Under the pieces are notes generated by a model. That model did not search any database, was not told the DNA's origin, and saw nothing but the letters and a program-made list of their open reading frames with translations. A stretch of DNA of 40,371 bases from an uncultured Coleofasciculus sp. (GTDB lineage: Bacteria; Cyanobacteriota; Cyanobacteriia; Cyanobacteriales; Coleofasciculaceae): assembly GCA_937127375.1 (NCBI GenBank), contig CAKZMA010000570.1, forward strand, positions 1-40,371, given 5' to 3'. The stretch's first letter is position 1, and the number at the start of each line of letters is the position of its first letter. The translations under genes and the position numbers were made by a program. Positions 1,035 to 38,207 of the stretch are shown here, one piece after another.

Positions 1035-1045
1035 GATTGAGATTT

Positions 1046-1618
1046 ATGGCGAAGTCCAAATATTCACAGGAAATACAAGAAATAATCTGTGAAGCGATCG
1101 CGACCGAGGGAGGCGATGAGGTAGGGTGGAGAGCCGGGGGAATATCTAAAGCCACTTTCTATAAATGGATTGAAGCCCATCCCGACTTTAAAGACGCAGT
1201 TGGGAAGGCGCGATCGCAGTTTCAAAAGCGCTGCCCAGCTTATCAAAAGGGTTTGGCGCTAGACCGCTTAACTGAAGCGCTAGAACATGGGCAACCGATC
1301 CATTGGACTACTAAAAAGTCAAAGCGGCTGGAACATTGGGTACCGGGAAAAGATGGTCAGCCTGATAAACTAAAATGGTATCAGGTGGAAACAACAGAAG
1401 AGGAACACACGGAACACCGCCCAGCGCCCAAGTGGGCAATAGAAAGGGTGATACCCAGACCAATAGAGGACGATGTAAATGCCGCGATCGCATTTTTAGA
1501 AAGGCACGGATTTAAGGTAATTGTGGATGGTGAGATCCCAACGATTAACCCCCAAAATGGCAGCGAAAGTCAGGGCAAACTCACGGGCGCTCGCGACTCC
1601 AACGGGCAGTCTTCCTGA
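1046..1618 (+). CDS. terS: Terminase small subunit
   Basis: Small terminase subunits bind phage DNA at the packaging site and load the large subunit. Residues 5-60 carry a helix-turn-helix of the terminase/transposase type (EIQEIICEAIATEGG then ISKATFYKWIEAHPDFKDAV), typical of TerS. The rest is charged; residues 100-150 look like the oligomerisation part and residues 150-170 (NAAIAFLERHGFKVIVDG) a small C-terminal fold. The ATG at 1046 (MAKSKYSQ) is chosen over a TTG at 1037. The terminase large subunit gene begins 61 bases before its stop in another frame. The call relies on the HTH and on the neighbour. Confidence 0.8.
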   Translation: MAKSKYSQEIQEIICEAIATEGGDEVGWRAGGISKATFYKWIEAHPDFKDAVGKARSQFQKRCPAYQKGLALDRLTEALEHGQPIHWTTKKSKRLEHWVPGKDGQPDKLKWYQVETTEEEHTEHRPAPKWAIERVIPRPIEDDVNAAIAFLERHGFKVIVDGEIPTINPQNGSESQGKLTGARDSNGQSS

Positions 1619-2957
1619 ACCTCAACCTAAGCAGAAAGAGTTTTTAAAAACAGAAGCAGATATTGCGATTTACGGCGGCGCGGCTGGAAGTGGGAAATCT
1701 CTGGCTTTACTTCTCGACTTTGCCAAGCCCAGGCTTTTAGAGAATCCTAACTATGGCGGTGTAATTTTTCGCCGCACCTATCCAGAAATTAAAAACGAGG
1801 GTGGCTTGTGGGATGAGTCTGGATTATGGTATCCGGGGATTGGGGCGAGCGCGAACGAGAATCGACTGACCTGGAATTTTCCGTCTGGCGCATCAATCCG
1901 TTTTTCCCATCTCCAGCATGAGAAGGATATATACAGGTGGCAAGGAGCACAACTGGAGCGCTGTGGTTTCGATGAAATTACCCATTTTTCCAAAAAGATG
2001 GTATTTTACCTGTTGACACGGATGCGCTCGCCCCACGGGGTCAAGCCCCAGCTAAGGGGAACGTGCAACCCAGATGCCGAAAGCTGGCTGGCTGAGGTAA
2101 TCGATTGGTGGATTAACCCCCAGGGCTACCCTTATCCAGAGCGCTCTGGGAAGCTGCGGTGGTTTATCGTCAGAAACGATGAATTAATATGGGCAGATTC
2201 AGCAGAAGAATTGCGATCGCGTTTCCCAAGCTCTAACCCTAAATCCTTTACCTTCATCAGCGCCAAACTGACAGACAACCCAGCGCTATTAGAGAAAGAC
2301 CCAAATTACCTAGCCAATTTGGAAGCCCAAGATGTAGTGGAGCGAGCGCGGCTTTTAGATGGTAACTGGCGAGTTAAAAAATCAGAATCCCGGCTATTCA
2401 AAGCTGCGGCTATTGATGCGAGCGCTCATGGGGCATGGGTTGAGCCTGTATTTGGGCGCTCATACTTAGTCGGAATTGATCCTAATTTTGGCGGGAATGA
2501 TGCTTTTTGCTGTCAGGTGTGGGACATCTCGAATACTCCCTATCAATTGGTATCTGAATATTCAGCGACTAACGAATCAATCACTGCATCAATTACTGCT
2601 TGCAGTAAGTTGATAGAACAGTACAAGCCAGCATTAGTATCAGTAGAAGTCAATGGCGGCGGGCGCACGGTGCAAGAGCGCTTAATCGAGTTTCACCCAG
2701 GGATACGGGTGGAAGGAGTGAACACCACTAAAGCCAGCAAGGTAATTAATACAGACAGGATTGCGATCGCGCTTGAGGAAGGATTGATTCAGTTTCCCCC
2801 AGATTGGGGCGGAACTGATCAGCTACGGGCATTCTCAAAGGAAACTAGAGAAGCGATTACAGGACATGATGACTCGGTAATGGCGTGGGCGGTGGCGTTT
2901 GCTTATATTGAGGAAGCGCGACAACTGGCGATGATTAATCCTTTGCTTCTCTCGTGA
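1557..2957 (+). CDS. terL: Terminase large subunit (packaging ATPase-nuclease)
   Basis: This is the motor that pumps DNA into the prohead and cuts concatemers. With the ATG at 1557 it is 466 aa. Walker A is GGAAGSGKS (40-48) and Walker B is RCGFDE (136-141). The RNase H-like nuclease part has acidic residues at D309 (VGIDPNFGG), E365 (VSVEVNGGG) and D439/D440 (GHDDSVMAWA). All expected elements are present and the length is usual. It overlaps terS by 62 bases. The last codons (2940-2957) lie inside a remnant of an antisense tnpB gene, so the extreme C-terminus may have been rewritten by that insertion. Confidence 0.95.
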   Translation: MAAKVRANSRALATPTGSLPEPQPKQKEFLKTEADIAIYGGAAGSGKSLALLLDFAKPRLLENPNYGGVIFRRTYPEIKNEGGLWDESGLWYPGIGASANENRLTWNFPSGASIRFSHLQHEKDIYRWQGAQLERCGFDEITHFSKKMVFYLLTRMRSPHGVKPQLRGTCNPDAESWLAEVIDWWINPQGYPYPERSGKLRWFIVRNDELIWADSAEELRSRFPSSNPKSFTFISAKLTDNPALLEKDPNYLANLEAQDVVERARLLDGNWRVKKSESRLFKAAAIDASAHGAWVEPVFGRSYLVGIDPNFGGNDAFCCQVWDISNTPYQLVSEYSATNESITASITACSKLIEQYKPALVSVEVNGGGRTVQERLIEFHPGIRVEGVNTTKASKVINTDRIAIALEEGLIQFPPDWGGTDQLRAFSKETREAITGHDDSVMAWAVAFAYIEEARQLAMINPLLLS

Positions 2958-3122
2958 CTTGCTTCCTTTCTCTTTTCTGTCTAATTTCCGTTGCTTACGC
3001 TTAAGATTACGCTCATGTTTAGCTAAATGCTTAGGATTAGGATACTTAGAGGTTTTGACCCCATCATTGACGATAGCAAAATCCTTTAACCCTAAATCAA
3101 TTCCAGCCACTTTACCAGGTAT
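2940..3122 (-). pseudogene. TnpB (IS200/IS605 OrfB) remnant
   Basis: On the minus strand the reading frame gives VAGIDLGLKDFAIVNDG, then a Lys/Arg-rich stretch with KRKQRKLDRKEKGSKSREKQR. This is the start of the RuvC-like core of TnpB, the RNA-guided nuclease of IS200/IS605 elements; the first catalytic Asp is in GIDLG. A stop codon lies just upstream and the homology ends at the terL stop, so only about 57 codons of a roughly 400-codon gene remain. No RuvC II/III or zinc-finger part is present and no TnpA is seen. It is a dead fragment. Confidence 0.8.
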
Positions 3123-3179
3123 AGTTCAGAGTGTTAGAATAAATAAAGTGTCAAACCAAGCAAAAGTAGGAAAAAATTA

Positions 3180-3587
3180 ATGAGATTTTCAGAAGAAACA
3201 ATCGAACTATTAAGAGGGACTTATGTTATCCCTCAGCTAATTGATCAATGCACTAGCATTCTTAACCAGTTTTGTTTTACCGAGATTGATTTTTTGACGT
3301 TTGCGGTTAACTCTGAAAGATTGTTTATTGTTGCCGTTAGTTTAGGAATTATGGAGATAAACGATCCAGTCTTTAAAGAGATCAACGCAATCATTAAACC
3401 ACAGGCTTACTTAGCGGAAGCTTATTTAGGGGTAGATACGAAAGATTACGATCGCGAAAATTTAATAAGATCTTTACCGCCGATATCAAAAAGCTTATTA
3501 GATTTAATAGACTTTTTGACAAAGGTGAATGAATCCCGGTTTAAGGATGACAATAATGCTTTTAGTTCTCCCGGTTTCGGCTCCTAA
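3180..3587 (+). CDS. Hypothetical protein, 135 aa
   Basis: No family was recognised. An AGGA site lies 9 bases before the ATG. The protein is rich in Ile, Leu and Phe with alternating charge, suggesting a compact helical soluble fold; residues 40-60 (FLTFAVNSERLFIVAVSLGI) are hydrophobic but carry charged residues. It sits between a tnpB remnant and a tail-fibre remnant, with somewhat lower GC than the terminase and portal genes and no GCGAGCGC octamer, so it may have come in with these insertions. Its 3' end overlaps the tail-fibre fragment on the other strand. Confidence 0.55.
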   Translation: MRFSEETIELLRGTYVIPQLIDQCTSILNQFCFTEIDFLTFAVNSERLFIVAVSLGIMEINDPVFKEINAIIKPQAYLAEAYLGVDTKDYDRENLIRSLPPISKSLLDLIDFLTKVNESRFKDDNNAFSSPGFGS

Positions 3588-3644
3588 GCTGCGATCGGTC
3601 AGGGTGTCTTTAATGTAGTGTTGGATCTCAAAGGTAGATGAGGC
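3571..3644 (-). pseudogene. Fragment resembling the tail-fibre C-terminus
   Basis: Read on the minus strand, this stretch gives STFEIQHYIKDTLTDRSLGA followed by ETG, which closely matches STKKFQIEQRIYDTITDRSL followed by GAEVG near the end of the tail-fibre protein at 27979-28887. Nothing upstream continues the match: a palindromic repeat (3649-3666) abuts it. It is best read as a remnant of a second tail-fibre gene left next to the terminase. Confidence 0.7.
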
Positions 3645-3648
3645 ATTA

Positions 3649-3666
3649 ACTACGGAAATCCGTAGT
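3649..3666. repeat. Palindromic repeat, copy 2
   Basis: ACTACGGAAATCCGTAGT, intergenic, directly bordering the tail-fibre fragment and upstream of the gene at 3706. Confidence 0.8.
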
Positions 3667-3705
3667 GAGAAATGCTACGATAATGTCACGTTCCAAGTTT
3701 TTACC

Positions 3706-4110
3706 ATGTTCACCGACTTAACCACTGCGCTCGCGATCGCCAAAGCCAACCTCGGTGTCACCGGAACAGATCGCGATGCTGAAATCACCGCTTTATTAGA
3801 AGCGAGCGCGGGAACAGACGCCAATGGCACAACCAACTATCGCCCTTACCTGGTGGCGGCTTACTTCTTACCGCTGTGGGGCGCGATCGCTAGGCAACAA
3901 TTAATATCGGCTGATGGTGCTACTTGGCTTAAGCCAAAAGACTTTGATCCATTAATTACCTCTCTCCTTACTCTTCAAGAGAGCGCTGATTGTGGTTTGA
4001 CTATTGACGAGTGCTGGAGTACAGACAATTTAAGAGAAAGGCTGCTCTGTGGCTGTAAAGCTGAGACTGGGGAGATAGCGGTGGCATTGCTTGGGGCGAA
4101 TGTAATATGA
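3706..4110 (+). CDS. Putative head-associated protein, 134 aa
   Basis: No family was securely recognised. The N-terminal half is helical and Ala-rich, followed by NYRPYLVAAYFLPLWGAIAR and a motif ADGATWLKPKD; this resembles small head or connector-region proteins in the same place in other phages. Cys residues cluster near the C-terminus (TIDECW, LLCGCK). Its stop overlaps the portal ATG in the arrangement ATGA, so translation is coupled to the portal, which supports a structural or assembly role. No good Shine-Dalgarno sequence precedes its own ATG. Confidence 0.6.
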   Translation: MFTDLTTALAIAKANLGVTGTDRDAEITALLEASAGTDANGTTNYRPYLVAAYFLPLWGAIARQQLISADGATWLKPKDFDPLITSLLTLQESADCGLTIDECWSTDNLRERLLCGCKAETGEIAVALLGANVI

Positions 4111-5651
4111 CGGAACTAAGGACAGATACGGAACTAAGGACAGATTCACTGGCGCTCGCGGAAACATTCGCGGCTATTTCCAATCCTTACACCGGAATAG
4201 GTACAACCCGCGCCAAAACCCAGAATGCCACGGTTAGCACCCGATTACACCGCCTATCTAGAGAAGCGCTAGAGGTGCTGCCATATAAGGATGAGCTTCT
4301 CGGAAAAGCTATTTGGTTGTACCCGGAATCCGCCGCCAAAGCGGGGTATGATATCCACATTGCCAACGACGCCACGGGCGATGAACTACCAGGCTTGATG
4401 AAACGCTATTTGGAAGAATTGGGAGAGAGAGAAGACCAAACCGAGGCTGAGGCTGAAGCCGAAATTTATGGGTTATTAGAGGCATTCTGTATCGCTTCTA
4501 TTTTGGCACGGCAATTCGGCAAGGCTTACATATTGATGGGCATTGACGACGGTCAAGATTTCTCAGAACCTGTCGCTAAAGACAGTGTAAGAGCAATCCG
4601 TTGGCTCCAGGTGTACGACGGCTGGGAAATGCATCCAGAGTATGATGGGGTGCGCTCGCGGAAACCTACCCACTACCGCTTATACTCTTTAGACTCCAAA
4701 CAATACGGGCAGAAAATACATCGTTCCCGTTTACTCTCGTTTTGGGGGAATCGGATTTATAGCCGCCGTCGTTTTCTGGGAGCAACTGACTACGGGGTTA
4801 ACGATGATGGCGTTAGCATCATTCAAGCGATGTTTGATGCCTATTCAGAATGGATTCAGGGGGTCAAGTCGGGGTCAGCGATGCTGGCTGATTACGATGT
4901 TTTTACTCTGGGGATGAAAGGTTTGGGGCGGTTGCTCCTCGAGGATAAGCAGAAGGGGACGAATAAGAATCAGGAAGCCATAGCTAATCGAGCGCTCGCT
5001 CTTGATATGGGAAAATCGACGGTTCGGGGAATCTACTACGATTTAGAGAATGAAGAGCCTGGGGCTGTAACCCGTACTTATTCCGGTGCTGATGCGATTA
5101 TGGAAACCTTGGAGAGGCGATGGGTGGCAGTATCGGGTGTTCCAAAGTTTAAACTGTTTGGGGAAATTGGTAGCCAGGGGCTAACTAATAATCAAGGATT
5201 GGCGATGCGCTCAGAATGGGCGATTTTAACTCAGATCTTCGCACACCGATGGATACCTAATCTCAAACGCATTCTCTCCTACGGATTTTTAGCCAAAGAC
5301 TCACCCACCAAGGGAAGATTGCCTGATAACTGGTCTGTTTCCATTCCCTACGATTTACCGATGACTGATAGCGAGCGCATGGATTTTGAGGATAAAGCGG
5401 CAAGCAGAAGCAAGAAGCTTGTGGATATGGGTGCCATTACCCCAGAGGAGGTCCGCACCGGGTACGAGGGTGCTGAATTTTCTGGCGATTACGTTCTCAC
5501 TACGCGAGAATCCTCGCGTAGTGAGAAAAAGCAACGGACTGATTCAACTGAGATACTTAGTGATGAAGAGTGGGACGCGCTCGCTGAGGTTAGTGCTGCT
5601 GACTTTGTTGAAGTCGCCAATAGCCTCACTTCGACTTCGCTCAGTGACTAA
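4107..5651 (+). CDS. Portal protein (DUF1073-type)
   Basis: The portal is the dodecameric ring at the capsid vertex through which DNA enters. The 514-residue protein has the DUF1073 pattern: SREALEVLPYKDELLGKAIW near the N-terminus, ARQFGKAYILMGIDDG around 145-160, then the clip/stem/wing regions with YSEWIQGV and GSQGLTNNQGLAMRSEW. It starts within the preceding stop (ATGA). The first codons after ATG hold an 18-nt tandem duplication (4110-4127 and 4128-4145) that encodes TELRTD twice. Near the C-terminus an inverted repeat at 5494-5527 is read through in frame (LTTRESSRSEK). Confidence 0.85.
   Translation: MTELRTDTELRTDSLALAETFAAISNPYTGIGTTRAKTQNATVSTRLHRLSREALEVLPYKDELLGKAIWLYPESAAKAGYDIHIANDATGDELPGLMKRYLEELGEREDQTEAEAEAEIYGLLEAFCIASILARQFGKAYILMGIDDGQDFSEPVAKDSVRAIRWLQVYDGWEMHPEYDGVRSRKPTHYRLYSLDSKQYGQKIHRSRLLSFWGNRIYSRRRFLGATDYGVNDDGVSIIQAMFDAYSEWIQGVKSGSAMLADYDVFTLGMKGLGRLLLEDKQKGTNKNQEAIANRALALDMGKSTVRGIYYDLENEEPGAVTRTYSGADAIMETLERRWVAVSGVPKFKLFGEIGSQGLTNNQGLAMRSEWAILTQIFAHRWIPNLKRILSYGFLAKDSPTKGRLPDNWSVSIPYDLPMTDSERMDFEDKAASRSKKLVDMGAITPEEVRTGYEGAEFSGDYVLTTRESSRSEKKQRTDSTEILSDEEWDALAEVSAADFVEVANSLTSTSLSD
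5494..5527. repeat. Inverted repeat inside portal gene
   Basis: TTCTCACTACGCGAG (5494-5508) and CTCGCGTAGTGAGAA (5513-5527) form a perfect 15-base stem with a four-base loop. The outer part (TCACTACG..CGTAGTGA) matches the interspersed palindrome family while the centre differs. It is translated in frame as LTTRESSRSEK. Confidence 0.75.
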
Positions 5652-5668
5652 TTGCAACCTATGCAAAT
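5652..5668. promoter_or_regulatory. Operator-like 17-mer, shared with the HTH gene at 11763
   Basis: TTGCAACCTATGCAAAT, with the inverted half-sites TTGCA/TGCAA. It lies in the short gap between the portal stop and the protease/scaffold start. The identical 17-mer occurs at 11765-11781, immediately upstream of a minus-strand HTH repressor gene. Confidence 0.5.
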
Positions 5669-5707
5669 GCCATGAAAAGCTTGCCAGCCCCAAGATAGAC
5701 TAAGGGG

Positions 5708-6838
5708 ATGGAACTGCTCAGACTTGATAAGTTTAGCCCGTTACCGTGGCAAAAAAAGCCAGACGGTAGATACTGGACGCACGTCACGCTAGGTGAAGTT
5801 GGCGTTCCTTTGACGTATCTATCTGTTGATGGCAAAAAACATACTGAGGTGGTGACAGAAAAGGGCTTATTTAATGATGATTCAGTGCGCTCGCTGGCTG
5901 GACTTCCTATCCTTTTAAAACACCCCAAAAACAGGCGATACAATTTAAATCGGGATGGATTAAAAGTTGGGCATTTACTGGGGGAAGTAGCCAAAGAAGA
6001 TGGCAAGCTAATTGCTGAAGCTATTGTTGATGACTATCGGGCAGTTTCAATTATTGATAGCCTGTTGGCTAAAGGGGAAAGTCCGGAAGCCAGTAGCGGC
6101 TATTTACTATCTGACCTGCGAGCGCGGTCAGACGGCGTTTATGAGCAAATCAGGGGCGTATATGATCATGTAGCAACCCCGCTATTCCCCGGACAGGGAA
6201 GAGGTGGGCAGAACTTGACCTTAAGGTTTGATTCAGGAGACGCTGTAGTAGAACCGCTGTACTTTCTGTTTAATACTGATAAAAAGGAGACGGTAAATGT
6301 GAGTGATTTGATTGTAAGGATTGACGAAAAAGACCAACGAATACTCAAGGATGTATCAGATGAGGCGGCGAGCGCGATTAATGCGCTGCAATCCCGAATT
6401 GATACCCTCACCTCTGACTTAGAGGGAGTGGAACAGTTGGCAGAGGAATTACAAACGAAAAATGACCAACTCCAGGGACGCCTAGATGCAACTGAAACCC
6501 AGCCTCAGACAGACTCACAAGACATAGAGGAGCAAGTCCAGGCGCGGTTTGACGCCTGGAATGAGGTGATTCCGGTCGTTGGTGCGGATAAGCTCCAAAT
6601 CGACGCCAAACTTTCCCCATCTGAAGTGAAAGCGGGCGCGATTAAACTCATCAACCCCAATCTCAATTTGGATGGAAAATCTGAGGGATATATTGAGGGA
6701 TTATGGGAAGGGATTAAGAATCAGTCCCCCCCACGGAAAACAGACACTTTCCTGAACAATACTCGCACTGATCAGGGAGAAAAGAAAAATCCCGCGCTTG
6801 CATACACACAGGCTTATAAGAATAGGAGGCGTAATTAA
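5708..6838 (+). CDS. DUF2213-type prohead protease/scaffold
   Basis: DUF2213 proteins replace the usual prohead protease and scaffold in many phages with DUF1073 portals. Residues 1-170 show the conserved run: WTHVTLGEVGVPLTY, LAGLPILLKHP, GHLLGEVAKEDGKLIAEAIV and GESPEASSGYL, with the DHVATP block that follows. Residues 205-270 form a coiled coil (DEAASAINALQSRIDTLTSD, then VEQLAEELQTKNDQLQGRLD), the likely scaffold part, and the C-terminus is basic (AYKNRRRN). Its stop overlaps the next ATG (TAATG). The only visible SD (AAGGGG) touches the ATG. Cleavage activity is inferred from the family, not shown. Confidence 0.8.
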   Translation: MELLRLDKFSPLPWQKKPDGRYWTHVTLGEVGVPLTYLSVDGKKHTEVVTEKGLFNDDSVRSLAGLPILLKHPKNRRYNLNRDGLKVGHLLGEVAKEDGKLIAEAIVDDYRAVSIIDSLLAKGESPEASSGYLLSDLRARSDGVYEQIRGVYDHVATPLFPGQGRGGQNLTLRFDSGDAVVEPLYFLFNTDKKETVNVSDLIVRIDEKDQRILKDVSDEAASAINALQSRIDTLTSDLEGVEQLAEELQTKNDQLQGRLDATETQPQTDSQDIEEQVQARFDAWNEVIPVVGADKLQIDAKLSPSEVKAGAIKLINPNLNLDGKSEGYIEGLWEGIKNQSPPRKTDTFLNNTRTDQGEKKNPALAYTQAYKNRRRN

Positions 6839-7365
6839 TGCCAATCACAAATTATGATTTAATGATTGACAAAGAGTACCTACCAGGTACTCTAATTACT
6901 GCAACTGGGGGAACAGTTCAGACCCGATTTAATAACACGGGAAATATCCTGTTTTTTGGCTTGGGAGTCGTTACGGGGAGTGGCGAGCGCGTAATCGCTT
7001 TGCCTAGCACCGCTAACGACAAATTTGAAGGGGTGCTAATGCATACCAACACTTACGAGGCAAGGGAAGGATACAGCAAGGATGCTACAACCGGGTACTA
7101 TGGCTACCCAGATAAGCGAGAAGTAAGCATTATCCGCCCTGGTGAATTTGCTCAGGTAGCAGTTTTTGTTGATAGTGCGACGGCGATTAACGACCCTGTT
7201 TATGTTCGCTATTCTGCAACCCCAGGGACAACCGGGTTAGCCGGATGCTTTAGGCAAGACGACGGAACAACCACCGCTCTTGAGGTGACGGGCGCTCGCT
7301 TTATTAAAGTTGTTGCCGCTCCCACTGCGGGTGAAATGGCGATTAGTTGGGTTGAATTTAGTTAA
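6838..7365 (+). CDS. Capsid cement/decoration protein
   Basis: A 175-residue beta-rich protein between the scaffold and major capsid genes. The pattern TNYDLMIDKEYLPGTLITAT, VALPST-like repeats, FEGVLMHTNTYE, VSIIRPGEFAQVAVFVDSAT and NDPVYVRYSATP is that of phage structural cement proteins (Gp24-like), which sit on the capsid surface and stabilise it after expansion. AGGAGG precedes the ATG at suitable spacing. It overlaps the previous stop by one base and the capsid gene follows after 13 bases, so all three are co-expressed. Confidence 0.75.
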   Translation: MPITNYDLMIDKEYLPGTLITATGGTVQTRFNNTGNILFFGLGVVTGSGERVIALPSTANDKFEGVLMHTNTYEAREGYSKDATTGYYGYPDKREVSIIRPGEFAQVAVFVDSATAINDPVYVRYSATPGTTGLAGCFRQDDGTTTALEVTGARFIKVVAAPTAGEMAISWVEFS

Positions 7366-7378
7366 TTGGAGGTGAAGA

Positions 7379-8314
7379 ATGCCTGTAACGTTTGACTTGT
7401 ATGACGAGCTGACTCAACGGATGGACAAAATCCTTGAGCCTCGCTATCGCGCCATGTACTTTGAGAACGGCGATTTAATCCCAACGATGGCGGATTTAGA
7501 GCCAGGGGTTAAGGAGCTGGCGTATCCCCGCATGGAAGAAATCGGGGATGCTGCGATTATGGGAGATGCCGCTAGTGATATTCCCATGATCCAAATAACA
7601 GGGGACATTGACAGATACCCGATTTATATGATTATGTCCGCCTTCCCCGTTACTTTTCAGGAATCTAGAATGTTATCGCGATCGCAAATAGATAGCTTCC
7701 AGCGACGGATGACAGCCGCGAGACGGGCAATAGCCCAATACACGAACAAGGTTACGGCGTTGGGATTGACAACGCTTAATTTTCCTGGAGCGCTGACAAA
7801 TTCGCTAATTACAACGGATAACTCGGCGGTAAATATTTACACGTCAGATTACCAAACTGTCCTAGACTTCTTTGTTAGTATAATTAGAAGCCTGACAGAC
7901 AATTATGTGACATCTACGCCTACGGACATGGTTGTAAATGTCTCCGTTTGCAGTCGCTTAATATCTCTAGAAAACGCACAAGGTACGCGCAACGTTAAAG
8001 AGCGACTAGAGGAGATATTCCCTGAATTATTAATAACTGAAACCAAGGAGATGGAAGCCGCCCAAATAGATGGAAGCGGTATTACCAGACCGGGAACAGG
8101 AAAGGATCGGATATTTTTGTTTCCTAAAGAGGATATGGTATTGAACCGCCATATTGAAGCAACTGTGGCGGCGCTCGCACCTGAGGAATTTGTGCGTACA
8201 GCAACAGTCAAAGGGCAGCTAGCACGAGTTTACCCAATGTTTTCTTGTGTGTCTCCTTCAATTTTTGATTATCCTGATGATTGCCGCTATATCGATATCC
8301 CAGCTAAATCTTAA
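7379..8314 (+). CDS. Major capsid protein (DUF2184-type)
   Basis: 311 residues, directly after the cement gene, with GGAGGTGAAG as a strong ribosome-binding site. Conserved features of this capsid family include PRYRAMYFENGDLIP-like text near residue 22, AYPRMEEIGDAAIMGDAASD, FPVTFQESRMLSRSQIDSFQ and the C-terminal domain with VTSTPTDMVVNVSV and FVRTATVKGQLARVYPMF. An HK97 fold is expected from the family. No N-terminal delta domain is evident, consistent with a separate DUF2213 scaffold. Only two bases separate it from the following gene. Confidence 0.85.
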   Translation: MPVTFDLYDELTQRMDKILEPRYRAMYFENGDLIPTMADLEPGVKELAYPRMEEIGDAAIMGDAASDIPMIQITGDIDRYPIYMIMSAFPVTFQESRMLSRSQIDSFQRRMTAARRAIAQYTNKVTALGLTTLNFPGALTNSLITTDNSAVNIYTSDYQTVLDFFVSIIRSLTDNYVTSTPTDMVVNVSVCSRLISLENAQGTRNVKERLEEIFPELLITETKEMEAAQIDGSGITRPGTGKDRIFLFPKEDMVLNRHIEATVAALAPEEFVRTATVKGQLARVYPMFSCVSPSIFDYPDDCRYIDIPAKS

Positions 8315-32960: not shown

Positions 32961-33012
32961 TTTTTGCAGATATAACACCATAAACGGTAGATTTACATCA
33001 GGAATGAAGCGA

Positions 33013-33816
33013 ATGAGTAAGATTCAATGGACAGATGTGACGGATAACCCAATTCACTTAATTAAGCCAGACGGAAAACATGGAGGGCATTGGTGCAAGA
33101 AAATTAGCCCTGGCTGTGCTAATTGTTATGCAGAGGCTCAGAATCAAAAACCTTTTTACGGTTGGGCTTCTATGCGTCCTTATACCGGGAATCGCCCTAC
33201 GCTTTTCTTGCTCAATCTGGACATTCTTAATAGTTGGAGTCGGCAGCGAGCGCCAAAGAAGCACTTTGTCTGTTCGATGACTGATCTATTTGGCGATTGG
33301 GTGGCAACAGAATGGCAGTTTGAGATATTTGATGCGATGGTAGCTGCACCTAAACAGACATTCCAAGTTTTGACCAAACGTCCTCAGATTGCACTCAAAT
33401 CAATTGAAGAATATTGCCAAATAAATGGCTTAGAAAAACTACCTTCAAATATTTGGGTAGGTGTATCTGTAGAGAGCCAACAATATGCAGATGAGCGCAT
33501 TCCTGTCCTTTTTCAAGTTCCGGCACATATCCGTTTTTTAAGCGTCGAACCCTTGCTAGAGCAAGTGTTTCTGCCTTTGGAGAATATTAGCTGGGTCATT
33601 GTTGGCGGCGAGTCAGGGAGCCATGCCCGTCTTTGCCGGGTTGAGTGGATTCAGTCCGTAGTTAATCAATGCCAAAAATCAGGCGTTCCGGTGTTTGTTA
33701 AGCAGCTTGGAGCGCGTTCGTCTATTACGCTTCAAGATTCCAAAGGTGGAGATATTTCAGAGTTTCCCAAGTCATTACAAGTCCGTAACTTCCCAAAATT
33801 AAAAGTAGAGGTTTAG
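33013..33816 (+). CDS. DUF5131 (Gp37/Gp68-type) phage protein
   Basis: 267 residues from the ATG at 33013 (MSKIQWTDVTDNP), which suits this family better than 33004. The Cys cluster WCKKISPGCANCYAEAQNQK has C28, C35 and C38; the SMTDLFGDWV, VLTKRPQIAL, NIWVGVSVESQQYADERIPV, RFLSVEPLLEQV and WVIVGGESGSHARLCRVEWI blocks are the family's conserved core, probably a radical-SAM-like barrel. Members occur in many phages; the reaction is unknown. It lies between the helicase loader and the methyltransferase fusion, so a role in DNA modification is possible but unproven. Confidence 0.85.
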   Translation: MSKIQWTDVTDNPIHLIKPDGKHGGHWCKKISPGCANCYAEAQNQKPFYGWASMRPYTGNRPTLFLLNLDILNSWSRQRAPKKHFVCSMTDLFGDWVATEWQFEIFDAMVAAPKQTFQVLTKRPQIALKSIEEYCQINGLEKLPSNIWVGVSVESQQYADERIPVLFQVPAHIRFLSVEPLLEQVFLPLENISWVIVGGESGSHARLCRVEWIQSVVNQCQKSGVPVFVKQLGARSSITLQDSKGGDISEFPKSLQVRNFPKLKVEV

Positions 33817-33818
33817 AG

Positions 33819-36800
33819 ATGGCGCGTAAGAAATTAACAGGAATTCAACAGCGAGCGCAAAAAGCGCAAGATTTGTACGACTGTGCTGAACCAGGAATGC
33901 TGGCTGTAAACATTAACGGAAAGGTTGGCATAATTACTGATAAATTTATCAGTCCAGGAGGAATGCCTCATATTTGGATGCAGTATCCAGGGTCATTAGC
34001 GATGTCCGAACCCATGGATTTAATTGCCACAATTGAGAAAAAGCCAATTGCAGTCATCTTGTTCTCAGGTGGCGGTGGTGTGGAAGCTGGAATGATAGAA
34101 GCGGGAATCGAACCCATTTTAGCGGTGGAGTATGACCCAGACAAACCGGAATTATCGGAAGCGCTCGCGGCTTCCCATGAGGCAAACTTCCCCCGGTGTA
34201 AGGTGATTCGTTGTACTGTGCAAGAGTGCGCGGCTAAAAACTTTAAAGGATTTCCCCAAGAGCCAGATATTTTATGGGCATCCCCGGTGTGTGCCAATTT
34301 CAGCGCTGCCAAGAATGGCAAGGAACAGTCAGGGGACATTGAAGCGGCAAAAGCTGTCATTGCAGCGATTAAAAAGCTCAAGCCCAAACACTTTTTCTTG
34401 GAGAATGTACCATCTTACGGGCGCTCGCAATCTTGGCAGCAAATAGAGTCGATTCTGCCAGTTATCGGATATCGAATTGGATCGGCTGTGATTGATATGT
34501 CCGATTACGGCGTTCCCCAGGCGCGGCGGCGGTTTATCGCCTGGGCTTCACGAGATAAAGAACCGTTCCCTCTTCCTGAGTCGCAGGAGAAAAAGACTTC
34601 ATGGTATGAAGCGCTCGCCGATCTAATCCCCGATCTACCAGAATCCCAATTGCTTAAAGGGCAGCAGCAATCCGTGGACGAGTTTCTTGAATCTTCTAAT
34701 CAGCCTACCCCTCTGCTGATAGACCGATCGGGTGGGCGTGCTCGTTACCGAGCGGTTCCGAGTTCCAGGTCAGCCAATACCATCTTGCGATCGCACTTCA
34801 CTGATGGAAAAGGCGGCAATCGCACCAAGTTTGCTGATATCTGGTTGCCTGATGGTACAGTCAAATCGGTGTCGATTGAGTGTATGGCACGGTTGCAGAG
34901 CTTCCCGAAGTGGTATCAGTTTCCAGACCAGGTAGCGATCGCTGGCTCAATCATTGGGTATTCTGTGCCGCCTAAGTTTGTGGAGCAACTGGTCACTGCG
35001 GTCACTGCGGTCACTACGGATATCCGCAGTGAGCATGAAATTGTGCTTGACGAAATAGCTGAAGTTGCCAAAGAAATGGAATGCCCTAATGCCATGCCTA
35101 CTCTGGAATACGGCGGTAATGGAAATGGTAATCATGCGCTCGCGGTGCAGACTTCCAGTAAATCCGATGAGCAGTACACGCCAGATGTGGTGATTGAAGC
35201 GGCGCTCGCGACCTTAGAAGTAATTGATTTAGACCCCTGCTCAAGCTCCAAGACTGAACCAAATATCCCAGCCGCCAACCATTACACGAAAGAGGATGAT
35301 GGGTTGGAGCAAACATGGGCGATAGGGGACGGGCGAATTTATTTAAATCCCCCTTATTCAGACACCGCCGCTTGGGTTGACAAGCTTATTGAAGAGTACG
35401 CGCTCGGTGCTGTAAAAGAGGCGGTGGTACTGGTTAAATCTGCTACCGATACCCAGTGGTATCAAAAGCTTGACAAGTTTCCCAAATGCTTGTGGAATGG
35501 GCGGTTAAAGTTCAAAAATCCTAGTAATAACGGTTCGCCAGCACCATTCGCCAGTACCGTTTTTTACTTGGGCGATCGCCCAGAACGGTTCCGGAATGCG
35601 TTTAGTCCACACGGGCGCGTTCACGGTTTACCCGATTTGCCAGCGCCAAACTATCCCAATTTGGGAAAAGTTTTAAATGGTGCTGCTGTTCCGTGTCCTA
35701 TAGAAGTGCTTTCTCTTCTTTCTTCCAATGATTTTATTAAGCACAAAGATGAAGCTTTTTGTTATAAATTCCTTAAGCTTGATCAGGCTAATTCTGTTGC
35801 TATTGGACATTGGGAAGGCAGTCAATTCAATGTCCCTTATGAAAGTCTTTCTGTCTGTCATCTGTATGACAGCACGGGGTCGTTGCCTCAAACAGTAGCC
35901 TATTCCACTGCTTTAAAGGCATTGAAAGGGAGTGGAACGGATGAGGTTGTTGACGAGGCGGTGACAAACAACTCTGAGCTAGATGGTGACAATCTAGCCG
36001 CGAGCGCCAATCAGGTACAAACTGTCGAAACTTCTTGGGGGGTTTTTCAATGGAATGATGAAGTCCTTTTGTGGGCTTCAAAAGATCACAAAAAACGCAT
36101 TGACTGGGAGGGTTTGGAATGCTTGATTCTGGAGGAAAATGGCTCTCAAAAATTGGTCATTCCTTACGGTTCTCTTCCGATTAATAAAGATGGGTCAAAG
36201 CCACCCGTTGAAAATGCAAGGTTTCGTAAGCCATGGTGGATAGGTGGAGAGGAACTTTATGCTGCTCTTTCCCTTGCTGAGATTCGTCGTGACGGTGGAA
36301 CCCAACCCCGTGAGAAGCTGGATTTAGCTCATGTTGCTACTCTCAAAGAGGCTTTAGAGGACGGTGCGGAACTGAATCCGGTGGCAGTGTTCTACGACGG
36401 CGAGAGTTATTGGTTGGCTGATGGTTTCCATCGCTGTAAAGCTAGTCAGGATGCAGGTTTGGATGATATTCAGTGCATCATTTACCAAGGAACACGCCGC
36501 GATGCAGTGCTTTATTCTGTGGGTGCTAATGCCGAACACAAAGCCGCAAAACCTCGCAGTCGCAATGATAAGCGCCGTGCTGTAACTATGCTGCTTAACG
36601 ATCCGGAATGGTCAAAGTGGAGTAATTACGAGGTTGCTCGACAGTGTAAGGTCAGTGAGAAAACGGTGCGGAATATTCGCGCTCGCCTCACTACGGATTT
36701 CCGTAGTGAAAGCCGCACTTATACCACTAAACATGGGACTACCGCGACCATGCAAACCGGAAATATTGGTAAAGCTGAAGGGGCGAGCATATCAGGCAGT

Positions 36801-37829
36801 AACGGTAACGGCAACGGAAAAATTAACCGCCCCGCTAATCGTTGGTATGGTGGTAAATGGCGGATCGGGAAATGGATTGCTTCTCACTTTCCAGAACACA
36901 AGATCTACGTCGAACCGTTCGGAGGGATGTGGTCTGTGGGACTGCAAAAACCCCAGTCTGAGATTGAGATCTACAATGATATTCACCCACTAGCGACTAA
37001 CTTTTGGACTCGTTTGAAAGAGGATTCAGAGCGATTAATTCAGTGTATAGACGCGATCCAATGGAATGAGGAGACGGTTAAGTGGGCGAAAGAAGTAACT
37101 ACAGACCCGTTTGAATCCGCTGTTAAGTTCTACATTCAATGTCGTATTGCTTATGCTGGTGGTGGCACCGGTTGGGGTTCTGGGTATAGCCCCAAATCTT
37201 TTGATAAGAAGGAAAACAGCGATCACTCGCATCTAATCGCGATCGCCAACCGCATTAAAAATCTGCAAATTTACGGGGAGGACGCACTTGATATTATCCG
37301 GAAGTTCGATAGCCCTGATACTCTCTTTTATTGTGATCCGCCTTACGTGAAAGAAACTCGAAATTCTCACACACCCTATGAGTATGAATTTGATCGCCAC
37401 GAGGAGTTGATTACCTTATTAAGCTCAATTCAGGGAAAAGCGATTCTCAGTGGGTATCCTTCATTCAAGTATGCATCACTGTTATCTGGGTGGGACCGAA
37501 AAGATACTCAGGGTATGACCACAAGTAGCAAGGATGCCATGGAATGTATTTGGATCAAACCTACCGAACCTGCCATTAATCCAGATGACTACGCGATAAC
37601 ACCATTTAGTAACGGCAATGGTAACGGAAAACCCCTTGCTAATTCCACAGACAAAATGGATTCAGGGGGGCAAGTCGAAGTCAAGGATGCTACCGCTAAA
37701 CCTGCCATTAATCCAGATGACTACGCGATCGCCTTCCTCTCTAATCTCGATTCAATCAAGACCGACTTACTGAAAGAAGCTCGTGAGCGGATTGACGCTA
37801 TTTTGCAAGAACGTCTTGTGCAAAGATAA
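33819..37829 (+). CDS. Four-domain fusion: C5-MTase, N6A-MTase, ParB-like, D12 N6A-MTase
   Basis: 1336 residues. 77-395: cytosine-C5 methyltransferase, motif I LFSGGGG (81-87), catalytic Cys in SPVC (C158; usual form PPC), ENV (195-197), QARRR (234-238), a LQSFP/GYSVPP end. 447-600: phage DNA N6-adenine methyltransferase type (QYTPDVVIEAAL, DLDPCSSS, NPPY at 510-513). 600-805: unassigned. 806-960: ParB-like domain (LADGFHRCKA at 866-875) with a helix-turn-helix (YEVARQCKVSEKTVRNIR). 1003-1248: D12-class Dam-like methyltransferase (NRWYGGKWRIGKW; VEPFGGMW; DPPY at 1173-1176). Domains are joined by NGNGNGK-type linkers and by palindromic repeats translated as TTDIRSE (399-405) and TTDFRSE (958-964). 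Modification of phage DNA against host restriction is the likely purpose, inferred. Confidence 0.85.
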   Translation: MARKKLTGIQQRAQKAQDLYDCAEPGMLAVNINGKVGIITDKFISPGGMPHIWMQYPGSLAMSEPMDLIATIEKKPIAVILFSGGGGVEAGMIEAGIEPILAVEYDPDKPELSEALAASHEANFPRCKVIRCTVQECAAKNFKGFPQEPDILWASPVCANFSAAKNGKEQSGDIEAAKAVIAAIKKLKPKHFFLENVPSYGRSQSWQQIESILPVIGYRIGSAVIDMSDYGVPQARRRFIAWASRDKEPFPLPESQEKKTSWYEALADLIPDLPESQLLKGQQQSVDEFLESSNQPTPLLIDRSGGRARYRAVPSSRSANTILRSHFTDGKGGNRTKFADIWLPDGTVKSVSIECMARLQSFPKWYQFPDQVAIAGSIIGYSVPPKFVEQLVTAVTAVTTDIRSEHEIVLDEIAEVAKEMECPNAMPTLEYGGNGNGNHALAVQTSSKSDEQYTPDVVIEAALATLEVIDLDPCSSSKTEPNIPAANHYTKEDDGLEQTWAIGDGRIYLNPPYSDTAAWVDKLIEEYALGAVKEAVVLVKSATDTQWYQKLDKFPKCLWNGRLKFKNPSNNGSPAPFASTVFYLGDRPERFRNAFSPHGRVHGLPDLPAPNYPNLGKVLNGAAVPCPIEVLSLLSSNDFIKHKDEAFCYKFLKLDQANSVAIGHWEGSQFNVPYESLSVCHLYDSTGSLPQTVAYSTALKALKGSGTDEVVDEAVTNNSELDGDNLAASANQVQTVETSWGVFQWNDEVLLWASKDHKKRIDWEGLECLILEENGSQKLVIPYGSLPINKDGSKPPVENARFRKPWWIGGEELYAALSLAEIRRDGGTQPREKLDLAHVATLKEALEDGAELNPVAVFYDGESYWLADGFHRCKASQDAGLDDIQCIIYQGTRRDAVLYSVGANAEHKAAKPRSRNDKRRAVTMLLNDPEWSKWSNYEVARQCKVSEKTVRNIRARLTTDFRSESRTYTTKHGTTATMQTGNIGKAEGASISGSNGNGNGKINRPANRWYGGKWRIGKWIASHFPEHKIYVEPFGGMWSVGLQKPQSEIEIYNDIHPLATNFWTRLKEDSERLIQCIDAIQWNEETVKWAKEVTTDPFESAVKFYIQCRIAYAGGGTGWGSGYSPKSFDKKENSDHSHLIAIANRIKNLQIYGEDALDIIRKFDSPDTLFYCDPPYVKETRNSHTPYEYEFDRHEELITLLSSIQGKAILSGYPSFKYASLLSGWDRKDTQGMTTSSKDAMECIWIKPTEPAINPDDYAITPFSNGNGNGKPLANSTDKMDSGGQVEVKDATAKPAINPDDYAIAFLSNLDSIKTDLLKEARERIDAILQERLVQR
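35011..35032. repeat. Palindromic repeat between methylase domains 1 and 2
   Basis: TCACTACGGATATCCGCAGT with GA after it, preceded by two tandem GGTCACTGC units (34991-35009). It is read in frame as TTDIRSE. Confidence 0.85.
36688..36709. repeat. Palindromic repeat between ParB-like and D12 domains
   Basis: TCACTACGGATTTCCGTAGT with GA after it, read in frame as TTDFRSE. Confidence 0.85.
37567..37729 (+). repeat. 31-nt direct repeat in C-terminal linker
   Basis: A 31-base sequence beginning AACCTGCCATTAATCCAGAT occurs at 37567-37597 and again at 37699-37729, both encoding PAINPDDYA after the D12 methylase. The copies flank an Asn/Gly linker. Confidence 0.8.
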
Positions 37830-37901: not shown

Positions 37902-38207
37902 ATGAACAAACGCACCGATTATCACAGAGAATACTATCAACAGAAACGTCGTGCTAAGGAGGGCAGAACACCTCAAATTACAGCTCAAGAGCGGCGGCGC
38001 ACCAAATTCTTGCAAGAATTTCCAGGCTACTTTGACTTGTTGCAACAGATGGACGAGCGCGATCGCACGATCATTTTGGGATATTACGTGGAAGGTCGCA
38101 GCTTGGGATATCTGGGGGGGTTGTTTGGAGTGAGTCGGCAGCGAGCGCAAGAACTGCGGGATAAGGCTTTGCGGCGATTGCGAGAAATTTTTACTCAAAA
38201 TACTTGA
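37902..38207 (+). CDS. Sigma-70 region-4-like transcription regulator
   Basis: 101 residues. Residues 1-35 are basic. Residues 45-98 (LLQQMDERDRTIILGYYVEG, RSLGYLGGLFGVSRQRAQEL, RDKALRRLREIF) follow the region 4 helix-turn-helix of sigma factors, including the LG..FGVSR..  . QE...KALR.LR run. Region 2 is missing, so it is not a full sigma factor but may bind the -35 element or replace region 4, as phage late regulators do. Directly downstream lies a strong promoter whose -35 box overlaps its stop. Confidence 0.75.
   Translation: MNKRTDYHREYYQQKRRAKEGRTPQITAQERRRTKFLQEFPGYFDLLQQMDERDRTIILGYYVEGRSLGYLGGLFGVSRQRAQELRDKALRRLREIFTQNT

Follow-up and report, generated by a model that had tools for sequence, protein, structure and literature searches.

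A cyanobacterial myophage gene joining three methyltransferase-class domains and a ParB-like region: a candidate multi-target DNA self-modification enzyme

The fusion gene and its domains

The window, i.e. the whole 40,371 bp stretch analysed here (contig CAKZMA010000570.1, assembly GCA_937127375.1, from an uncultured Coleofasciculus sp.), has a single open frame of 1336 codons plus a stop at positions 33819–37829 of the + strand. The initial annotation, made from the letters of the sequence, proposed that this frame encodes three methyltransferase domains and a ParB-like/helix-turn-helix (HTH) region, and this organization is borne out by Pfam, by PHROG, by fold comparison and by relatives. 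The gene is divided as follows (aa, amino acid residues).

33819..37829, + strand: whole fusion gene, 1336 aa; an open reading frame (ORF) with an identical protein in three other assemblies
33819..34037, + strand: N-terminal module, aa 1–73, without a Pfam family
34038..35018, + strand: cytosine-C5 transferase domain, aa 74–400; SPVC, ENV and QxRxR intact, GYSVPP replaces GNxVPP
35106..35138, + strand: Asn/Gly linker GGNGNGNHAL, from the C5 to the Dam-type domain
35124..35654, + strand: phage-type N6-adenine methyltransferase (PF05869), aa 436–612, with NPPY
35655..36260, + strand: segment aa 613–814, the Dam/ParB spacer of ~200 residues
36261..36773, + strand: ParB/Srx-fold domain and HTH, aa 815–985; DGFHR where GERR is expected
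36816..37574, + strand: D12-class adenine methyltransferase, aa 1000–1252, with an NG linker before it; EPFGG and DPPY intact
37575..37826, + strand: C-terminal tail of 84 residues, with an NG linker and a duplicated PAINPDDYAI stretch

The profile search of each domain that the initial annotation had suggested places three methyltransferase families above the curated Pfam cut-offs: DNA_methylase PF00145 at residues 81–394 (2e-32), Dam PF05869 at residues 447–570 (1.4e-16), with NPPY present, and MethyltransfD12 PF02086 at residues 1009–1205 (2.5e-21). The D12 module keeps the N-terminal GGK, FGG and DPPY. Pfam matches of the ParB/HTH region are weak (ParB_N PF02195, residues 821–892, 0.0017, below cut-off; HTH_23, residues 919–957, 0.009). 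The ParB match is firm through PHROG_1033 (1.7e-14), and the PHROGs show an identical domain order. In addition, the family profile matches a solved ParB (4.6e-9), and a Foldseek search with the AlphaFold model of the ParB part finds 7bnk (5e-8). Solved relatives of the C5 domain in a profile search of the PDB are 8YF3, DNMT1, HaeIII and HhaI, and those of the D12 domain are EcoDam and 7m6b; for the Dam-type module, a sequence search of the PDB gave no meaningful match. A chain of three methyltransferase-class domains with ParB/HTH is supported by these profiles, and the activity of each domain is a prediction from them.

The catalytic motifs SPVC, NPPY and DPPY, reported as visible in the initial annotation, are all located in the 1336-aa protein. 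Motif positions are SPVC 155, ENV 195, QARRR 234, GYSVPP 380, DLDP 470, NPPY 510, EPFGG 1032 and DPPY 1173. The claim that the domains are joined by Asn/Gly linkers holds at three short sites, residues 432–438, 995–1000 and 1264–1270, to which the NG-rich linkers are confined, but not elsewhere, e.g. in the Dam/ParB segment. A Pfam search with that segment gave no significant match; it possibly contains two small beta-rich units, in a model that is unreliable (predicted local distance difference test score, pLDDT, mostly <50). Outside the named domains there are also ~73 N-terminal residues and the 84-residue tail.

Integrity of the frame

The assembly from which the window comes is fragmented (1596 contigs), and this gives some ground for the view that separate genes became one frame as an artefact of assembly or annotation; an assembly artefact of this kind had been named in the initial annotation as a finding that would overturn its proposal. 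Three IMG/VR contigs from other assemblies encode a protein 100% identical to that of the window, and their DNA identity to the window is 99.96–100%. At least two full-length independent relatives share the domain order at ~55–65% identity. With these observations, and with contigs that cross the window ends, the artefact was rejected, and its probability is considered negligible. Since the IMG/VR contigs run through the window end into the window start, the 40,371 bp window represents a complete circularly mapping element. At the 40371/1 junction one of these contigs is continuous, and two lack ~36 and ~230 bp. At its start the window has a hairpin-like inverted repeat (CTACGGAAGTCCGTAG).

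Relatives, cassette exchange and selection

Relatives of the fusion gene are present in genomes of the same family, including the Symploca sp. SIO2C1 and SIO2E6 metagenome-assembled genomes, and the same domain order is found in independent relatives from Symploca sp. SIO2C1 and two further viral contigs. The independent full-order relatives are L028 (1353 aa), L046 (1339 aa) and L112. In L112 the slot of the Dam module is taken by a divergent Dam-type module, and the contig edge cuts the C5 part. L028 and L046 have the architecture C5, extra module, Dam, ParB/HTH and D12. The extra module, which the window protein does not have, shows no significant Pfam match; its model (mean pLDDT 64) resembles the ASCH-fold proteins YqfB (3e-4) and 3s9x (3e-3), and it is called ASCH-like here. 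The N-terminal module is found at 44–49% identity in L028, L029, L045 and L046, and is absent from L030 and L031.

Other relatives differ in module content. L029 (1200 aa), L030 (1004 aa) and L031 (993 aa) are without Dam, and L029 retains a GNGNHAL linker stump where the Dam module would start. L045 (1088 aa) is without D12, and L032 (511 aa) and L082 are C5-Dam proteins. A tail similar to that of the window protein directly follows ParB in L033, L034 and L045, all without D12. ParB-Dam fusions are found in other phages. The architectures in the family are thus C5-Dam-ParB-D12, C5-ASCH-Dam-ParB-D12, C5-ASCH-ParB-D12, C5-ASCH-Dam-ParB, C5-Dam, C5-ASCH and ParB-Dam.

Close pairs of phages point to exchange of these modules. 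L038 and L046 are 98–100% identical over most of the packaging genes, and in their fusion genes a whole Dam module is missing from one of the pair. The Dam-ParB stretch of these two genes is 74–80% identical and part of the N-terminal region 68–79%, whereas the later C5, ASCH-like and D12 parts are 93–100% identical. Synonymous divergence (dS) between L038 and L046 is 0.018 for D12, 0.22 for C5 and 1.24 for ParB/HTH, a spread that a single common history cannot explain for all modules. Similarly, L045 and L038 are 97–100% identical over most packaging genes but 48–83% identical through most of the fusion gene, where L045 is without D12. Sequence comparison therefore indicates that the family exchanges modules as cassettes: the ASCH-like module is gained, Dam is absent or of another subtype, and D12 is lost. 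Cassette exchange and variable module content were missed in the initial annotation and are seen from the relatives.

The ratio of non-synonymous to synonymous divergence (dN/dS), estimated by a counting method for five modules (C5, Dam, ParB/HTH, D12 and the N-terminus), is ~0.1 (0.05–0.2) in all five where dS is estimable. The single exception, 0.58, is the D12 module of L029 against L046, which differ by very few changes. Purifying selection on all modules is supported in the pairs where it can be estimated from sequence. Inactivity of the domains by loss of key residues, the other finding that the initial annotation would have taken as fatal, was rejected, as the catalytic motifs are kept and dN/dS is low.

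Two further arrangements were observed. In the proteins of L084 (4974–7238) and L085 (4980–7211), C5 and ASCH-like modules precede a C-terminal segment that bears one more NPPYG motif, so that C5 seems to have joined a second methyltransferase independently here as well. A related genome, L035 (7029–9863), encodes a 944-aa protein with a C5 domain and then further unclassified sequence.

Genome context

The element encodes terminase, portal, head protease, major head protein, tail sheath, tape measure and tail proteins, and this gene set identifies it as a cyanobacterial myophage. Genes outside the fusion gene include the following.

1037..8314, + strand: terminase small and large subunits, portal, head protease and major head protein
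33004..33816, + strand: upstream neighbour, DUF5131 (PHROG_2045), with weak similarity to a radical-SAM mobile-pair protein
37902..38207, + strand: downstream neighbour, 101 aa, with a sigma-70 region-4-like HTH

The fusion gene sits between replication-type and packaging genes. In related phages the packaging genes are syntenic downstream of it, and the synteny of tail, fusion and packaging genes is common to these phages and the window. The ORFs of the related loci include no homologue of the DUF5131 gene. A megablast search against phages gave no match to a known phage record. With tblastn, the listed matches in phages cover at most ~25% of the query; for a plasmid record the coverage, over two neighbouring genes, is at most 40%.

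A large multidomain phage protein with methyltransferase and ParB modules, of kinds that occur in polyvalent proteins (PMC5512222), might be a virion-carried effector that is injected with the DNA and acts immediately on incoming DNA or host targets. From its position, flanked by replication-type and packaging genes, the gene does not look like one for a virion protein. Moreover, a metallopeptidase, MuF, RNA polymerase or SNF2 domain is not among the Pfam and PHROG matches; the domains share one kind of chemistry, and the disparate activities, typically with metallopeptidase, ART or SNF2 hubs, that mark polyvalent proteins are not found. The ParB part relates to PHROG_1033, a DdrB-type relation being conjectural. 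An injected effector is therefore a very improbable reading.

The C5 cofactor pocket and the transferred group

The C5 domain has the PF00145 profile and the HhaI-type features of a catalytic Pro-Cys, ENV and QxRxR. It departs from HhaI at motif X, where the Asn of GNxVPP (HhaI N304) is replaced by Tyr381. GYSVPP occurs in the 22 distinct clade sequences with motif X present; more distant phage cousins keep GNSVPP. Motif IV in the clade is SPxC, with Ser or Ala after the catalytic Cys. Members of the clade are mostly from cyanobacterial genomes and include stand-alone C5 enzymes.

In the PDB, the C5 profile matches 8YF3 best (1.8e-15). This is the carboxymethyltransferase SpCmoX, which acts with carboxy-S-adenosylmethionine (carboxy-SAM), and in which Arg350 occupies the position of HhaI Asn304 (PMC12783734). 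Loci of CmoX often hold ParB-domain genes (PMC12783734). Tyr at motif X, together with CmoX as the best PDB match, means that plain 5-methylcytosine (5mC) is not assured as the product, and the single 5mC mark foreseen in the initial annotation is weakened, the motif-X Asn being Tyr across this clade.

The C5 domain might accordingly resemble CmoX, which uses carboxy-SAM, in drawing on a SAM derivative to install a group other than methyl, with the adenine modules methylating. The profile match to SpCmoX, the SPxC motif, GYSVPP at motif X, where CmoX also differs from HhaI at the position concerned, and the frequency of ParB-domain genes in CmoX loci are in keeping with such hypermodification. 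Yet the window protein has SPVC rather than SPPC, and Tyr rather than the carboxylate-binding Arg350 at the aligned position; this Tyr may be compatible with ordinary SAM. For the carboxy-SAM synthase CmoA, the TIGR00740 profile matches nothing in the phage contig, and the rest of the host assembly gives matches below cut-off only. A CmoY ligase was not recognised either. Hypermodification by the C5 domain is considered unlikely. As the domain lacks the distinguishing features of CmoX and also one feature of ordinary C5 methyltransferases, the transferred group is probably, but not assuredly, methyl. A wider form of the idea, a cassette-swapped DNA-modification polyenzyme that places a cytosine hypermodification and two adenine methylations from a single chain, is slightly less probable still. 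The cofactor pocket of this C5 clade is unusual, and its product may be other than ordinary 5-methylcytosine.

A host protein (L276, 1498–2208) has a full-length CmoA-family match below cut-off, in another gene context with a second methyltransferase-like ORF nearby. From its sequence, it is a possible carboxy-SAM enzyme.

The ParB/HTH region

The ParB/Srx fold is recognised by both the family profile and the AlphaFold model. Solved CTP-binding ParBs have G-E-R-R, and the fusion family has G-F-H-R; in the window protein GFHR is at 869–872, aligned to the GERR of 7bnk. Because GFHR replaces the GERR CTPase motif, canonical loading as a ParB clamp is doubtful. The earlier suggestion that the ParB-like domain loads the protein on DNA is weakened to this extent.

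Among 64 phage ParB/HTH homologues scanned (E 0.001), 9 carry an MT-A70 fusion and 3 a Dam fusion, which fits ParB/HTH as a partner of adenine methyltransferases, as judged from sequence. Probably, the region tethers or positions the enzyme on DNA.

The same frequent fusion to adenine methyltransferases would also suit a ParB domain that is a nicking nuclease, the chain then being a restriction-modification-like or a replication/packaging enzyme. This has been proposed for BCE_0392, a prophage ParB-methyltransferase with a reported nicking-associated activity (PMC3459991; PMC5512222). The sequence of the window protein does not allow assignment of nuclease residues, and a separate nuclease domain is not recognisable in it. 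ParB is kept where D12 or Dam vary, a pattern that suits targeting no less than cleavage. Nicking is quite improbable on this evidence.

Restriction-site avoidance

Site counts in the phage were compared with 80 kb sampled from 15 host contigs. The phage has no GGCC site (105 expected), and the host sample has 4 (206 expected). CAGCTG is likewise absent from the phage (~9–10 expected) and is present once in the host sample (10 expected). GGCGCC and GCGCGC are also missing from the phage, with ~10 expected each, and the host sample avoids GGCGCC too. CGATCG is enriched 1.6-fold in the window. The sampled Symploca loci, L040 perhaps excepted, do not avoid CAGCTG.

Shared site avoidance links the phage with the host lineage. 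It suggests restriction pressure on the lineage at GGCC and CAGCTG that is met by site loss and not by methylation. As both sites are avoided in the phage, they would not be motifs that the fusion protein protects. Site statistics yielded no target motifs for the protein.

Proposed function

The gene is interpreted as encoding a multi-target DNA self-modification (anti-restriction) enzyme of a cyanobacterial myophage, updated by cassette exchange, with a probability of roughly two-thirds. In this reading the protein would act on three motifs: a cytosine motif that the C5 domain alkylates, probably by adding methyl, and two adenine motifs that are the methylation targets of the Dam-type (PF05869) and D12 domains. 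Once replicated, phage DNA marked in this way would withstand restriction by several host systems. The ParB/HTH region probably serves to tether or position the enzyme on DNA. Flexible linkers, NG-rich and other, would let the modules act independently and be exchanged; with such linkers and module exchange, recombination could change the set of protected sites. The observed basis is the identity of the domains, their intact motifs, purifying selection, module mosaicism and the location beside packaging genes; from these we infer the enzymatic activity, the targets, the tethering role and the anti-restriction benefit.

Several points weigh on the other side. Site avoidance is an indirect sign of restriction pressure and no proof of protection by the fusion protein. 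The altered C5 cofactor pocket, as read from sequence, may leave methyl unassured as the transferred group. In comparisons with the window gene dS has mostly reached saturation, so purifying selection on the window copy is deduced chiefly from its relatives.

The fusion is a real, conserved and modular multi-methyltransferase of cyanophages, and it most likely serves in self-protection against restriction. The swap, gain and loss of modules among close relatives suggests that the hiding of viral DNA from bacterial restriction enzymes is quickly re-tooled. With three modification chemistries and a DNA-binding module in one chain, and with modules that differ between otherwise near-identical phages, recombination would have a natural means of altering several protective marks together. 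The fusion is also a case in which the arms race between phages and restriction in filamentous cyanobacteria can be tested, and a possible source of multi-site modification reagents.

Comparison with known systems

DNA-modification genes are usually carried singly by phages. No description of this triple-methyltransferase and ParB architecture was found in the open-access papers searched, in agreement with the initial annotation, according to which fusions of two such domains are known but a chain with three different methyltransferases and ParB is not.

CmoX (8YF3; PMC12783734) is the closest solved relative of the C5 domain and shares with it SPxC, an altered motif-X position and, in many loci, an association with ParB genes. 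It differs in Arg350, here Tyr, and in SPPC, here SPVC, and the phage has no CmoA match. BCE_0392 of a Bacillus cereus prophage is likewise a phage ParB-methyltransferase fusion, with the methyltransferase gene BCE_0393 adjacent by locus number (PMC3459991); these are separate genes, whereas here three methyltransferase domains and ParB are in one chain. MhoVII M1-M2 of Mycoplasma hominis is a natural fusion of two methyltransferases in one chain, one of them D12 (PMC12898733). Its two N6-methyladenine domains belong to a restriction-modification system with a nuclease and one asymmetric site, and it has neither C5 nor ParB. Polyvalent proteins (PMC5512222) are also variable multidomain chains that include methyltransferase and ParB modules; in the window protein, with its one kind of chemistry, no metallopeptidase or injection-related domain was found.

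Orphan phage DNA methyltransferases (C5, PF05869/TIGR01712 and D12) are similar module by module, as each module is above its Pfam cut-off and keeps its catalytic motif. The modules of the window protein are all below the NCBIfam cut-offs, and here three classes are joined with ParB/HTH in one chain whose modules appear to be exchanged as cassettes.

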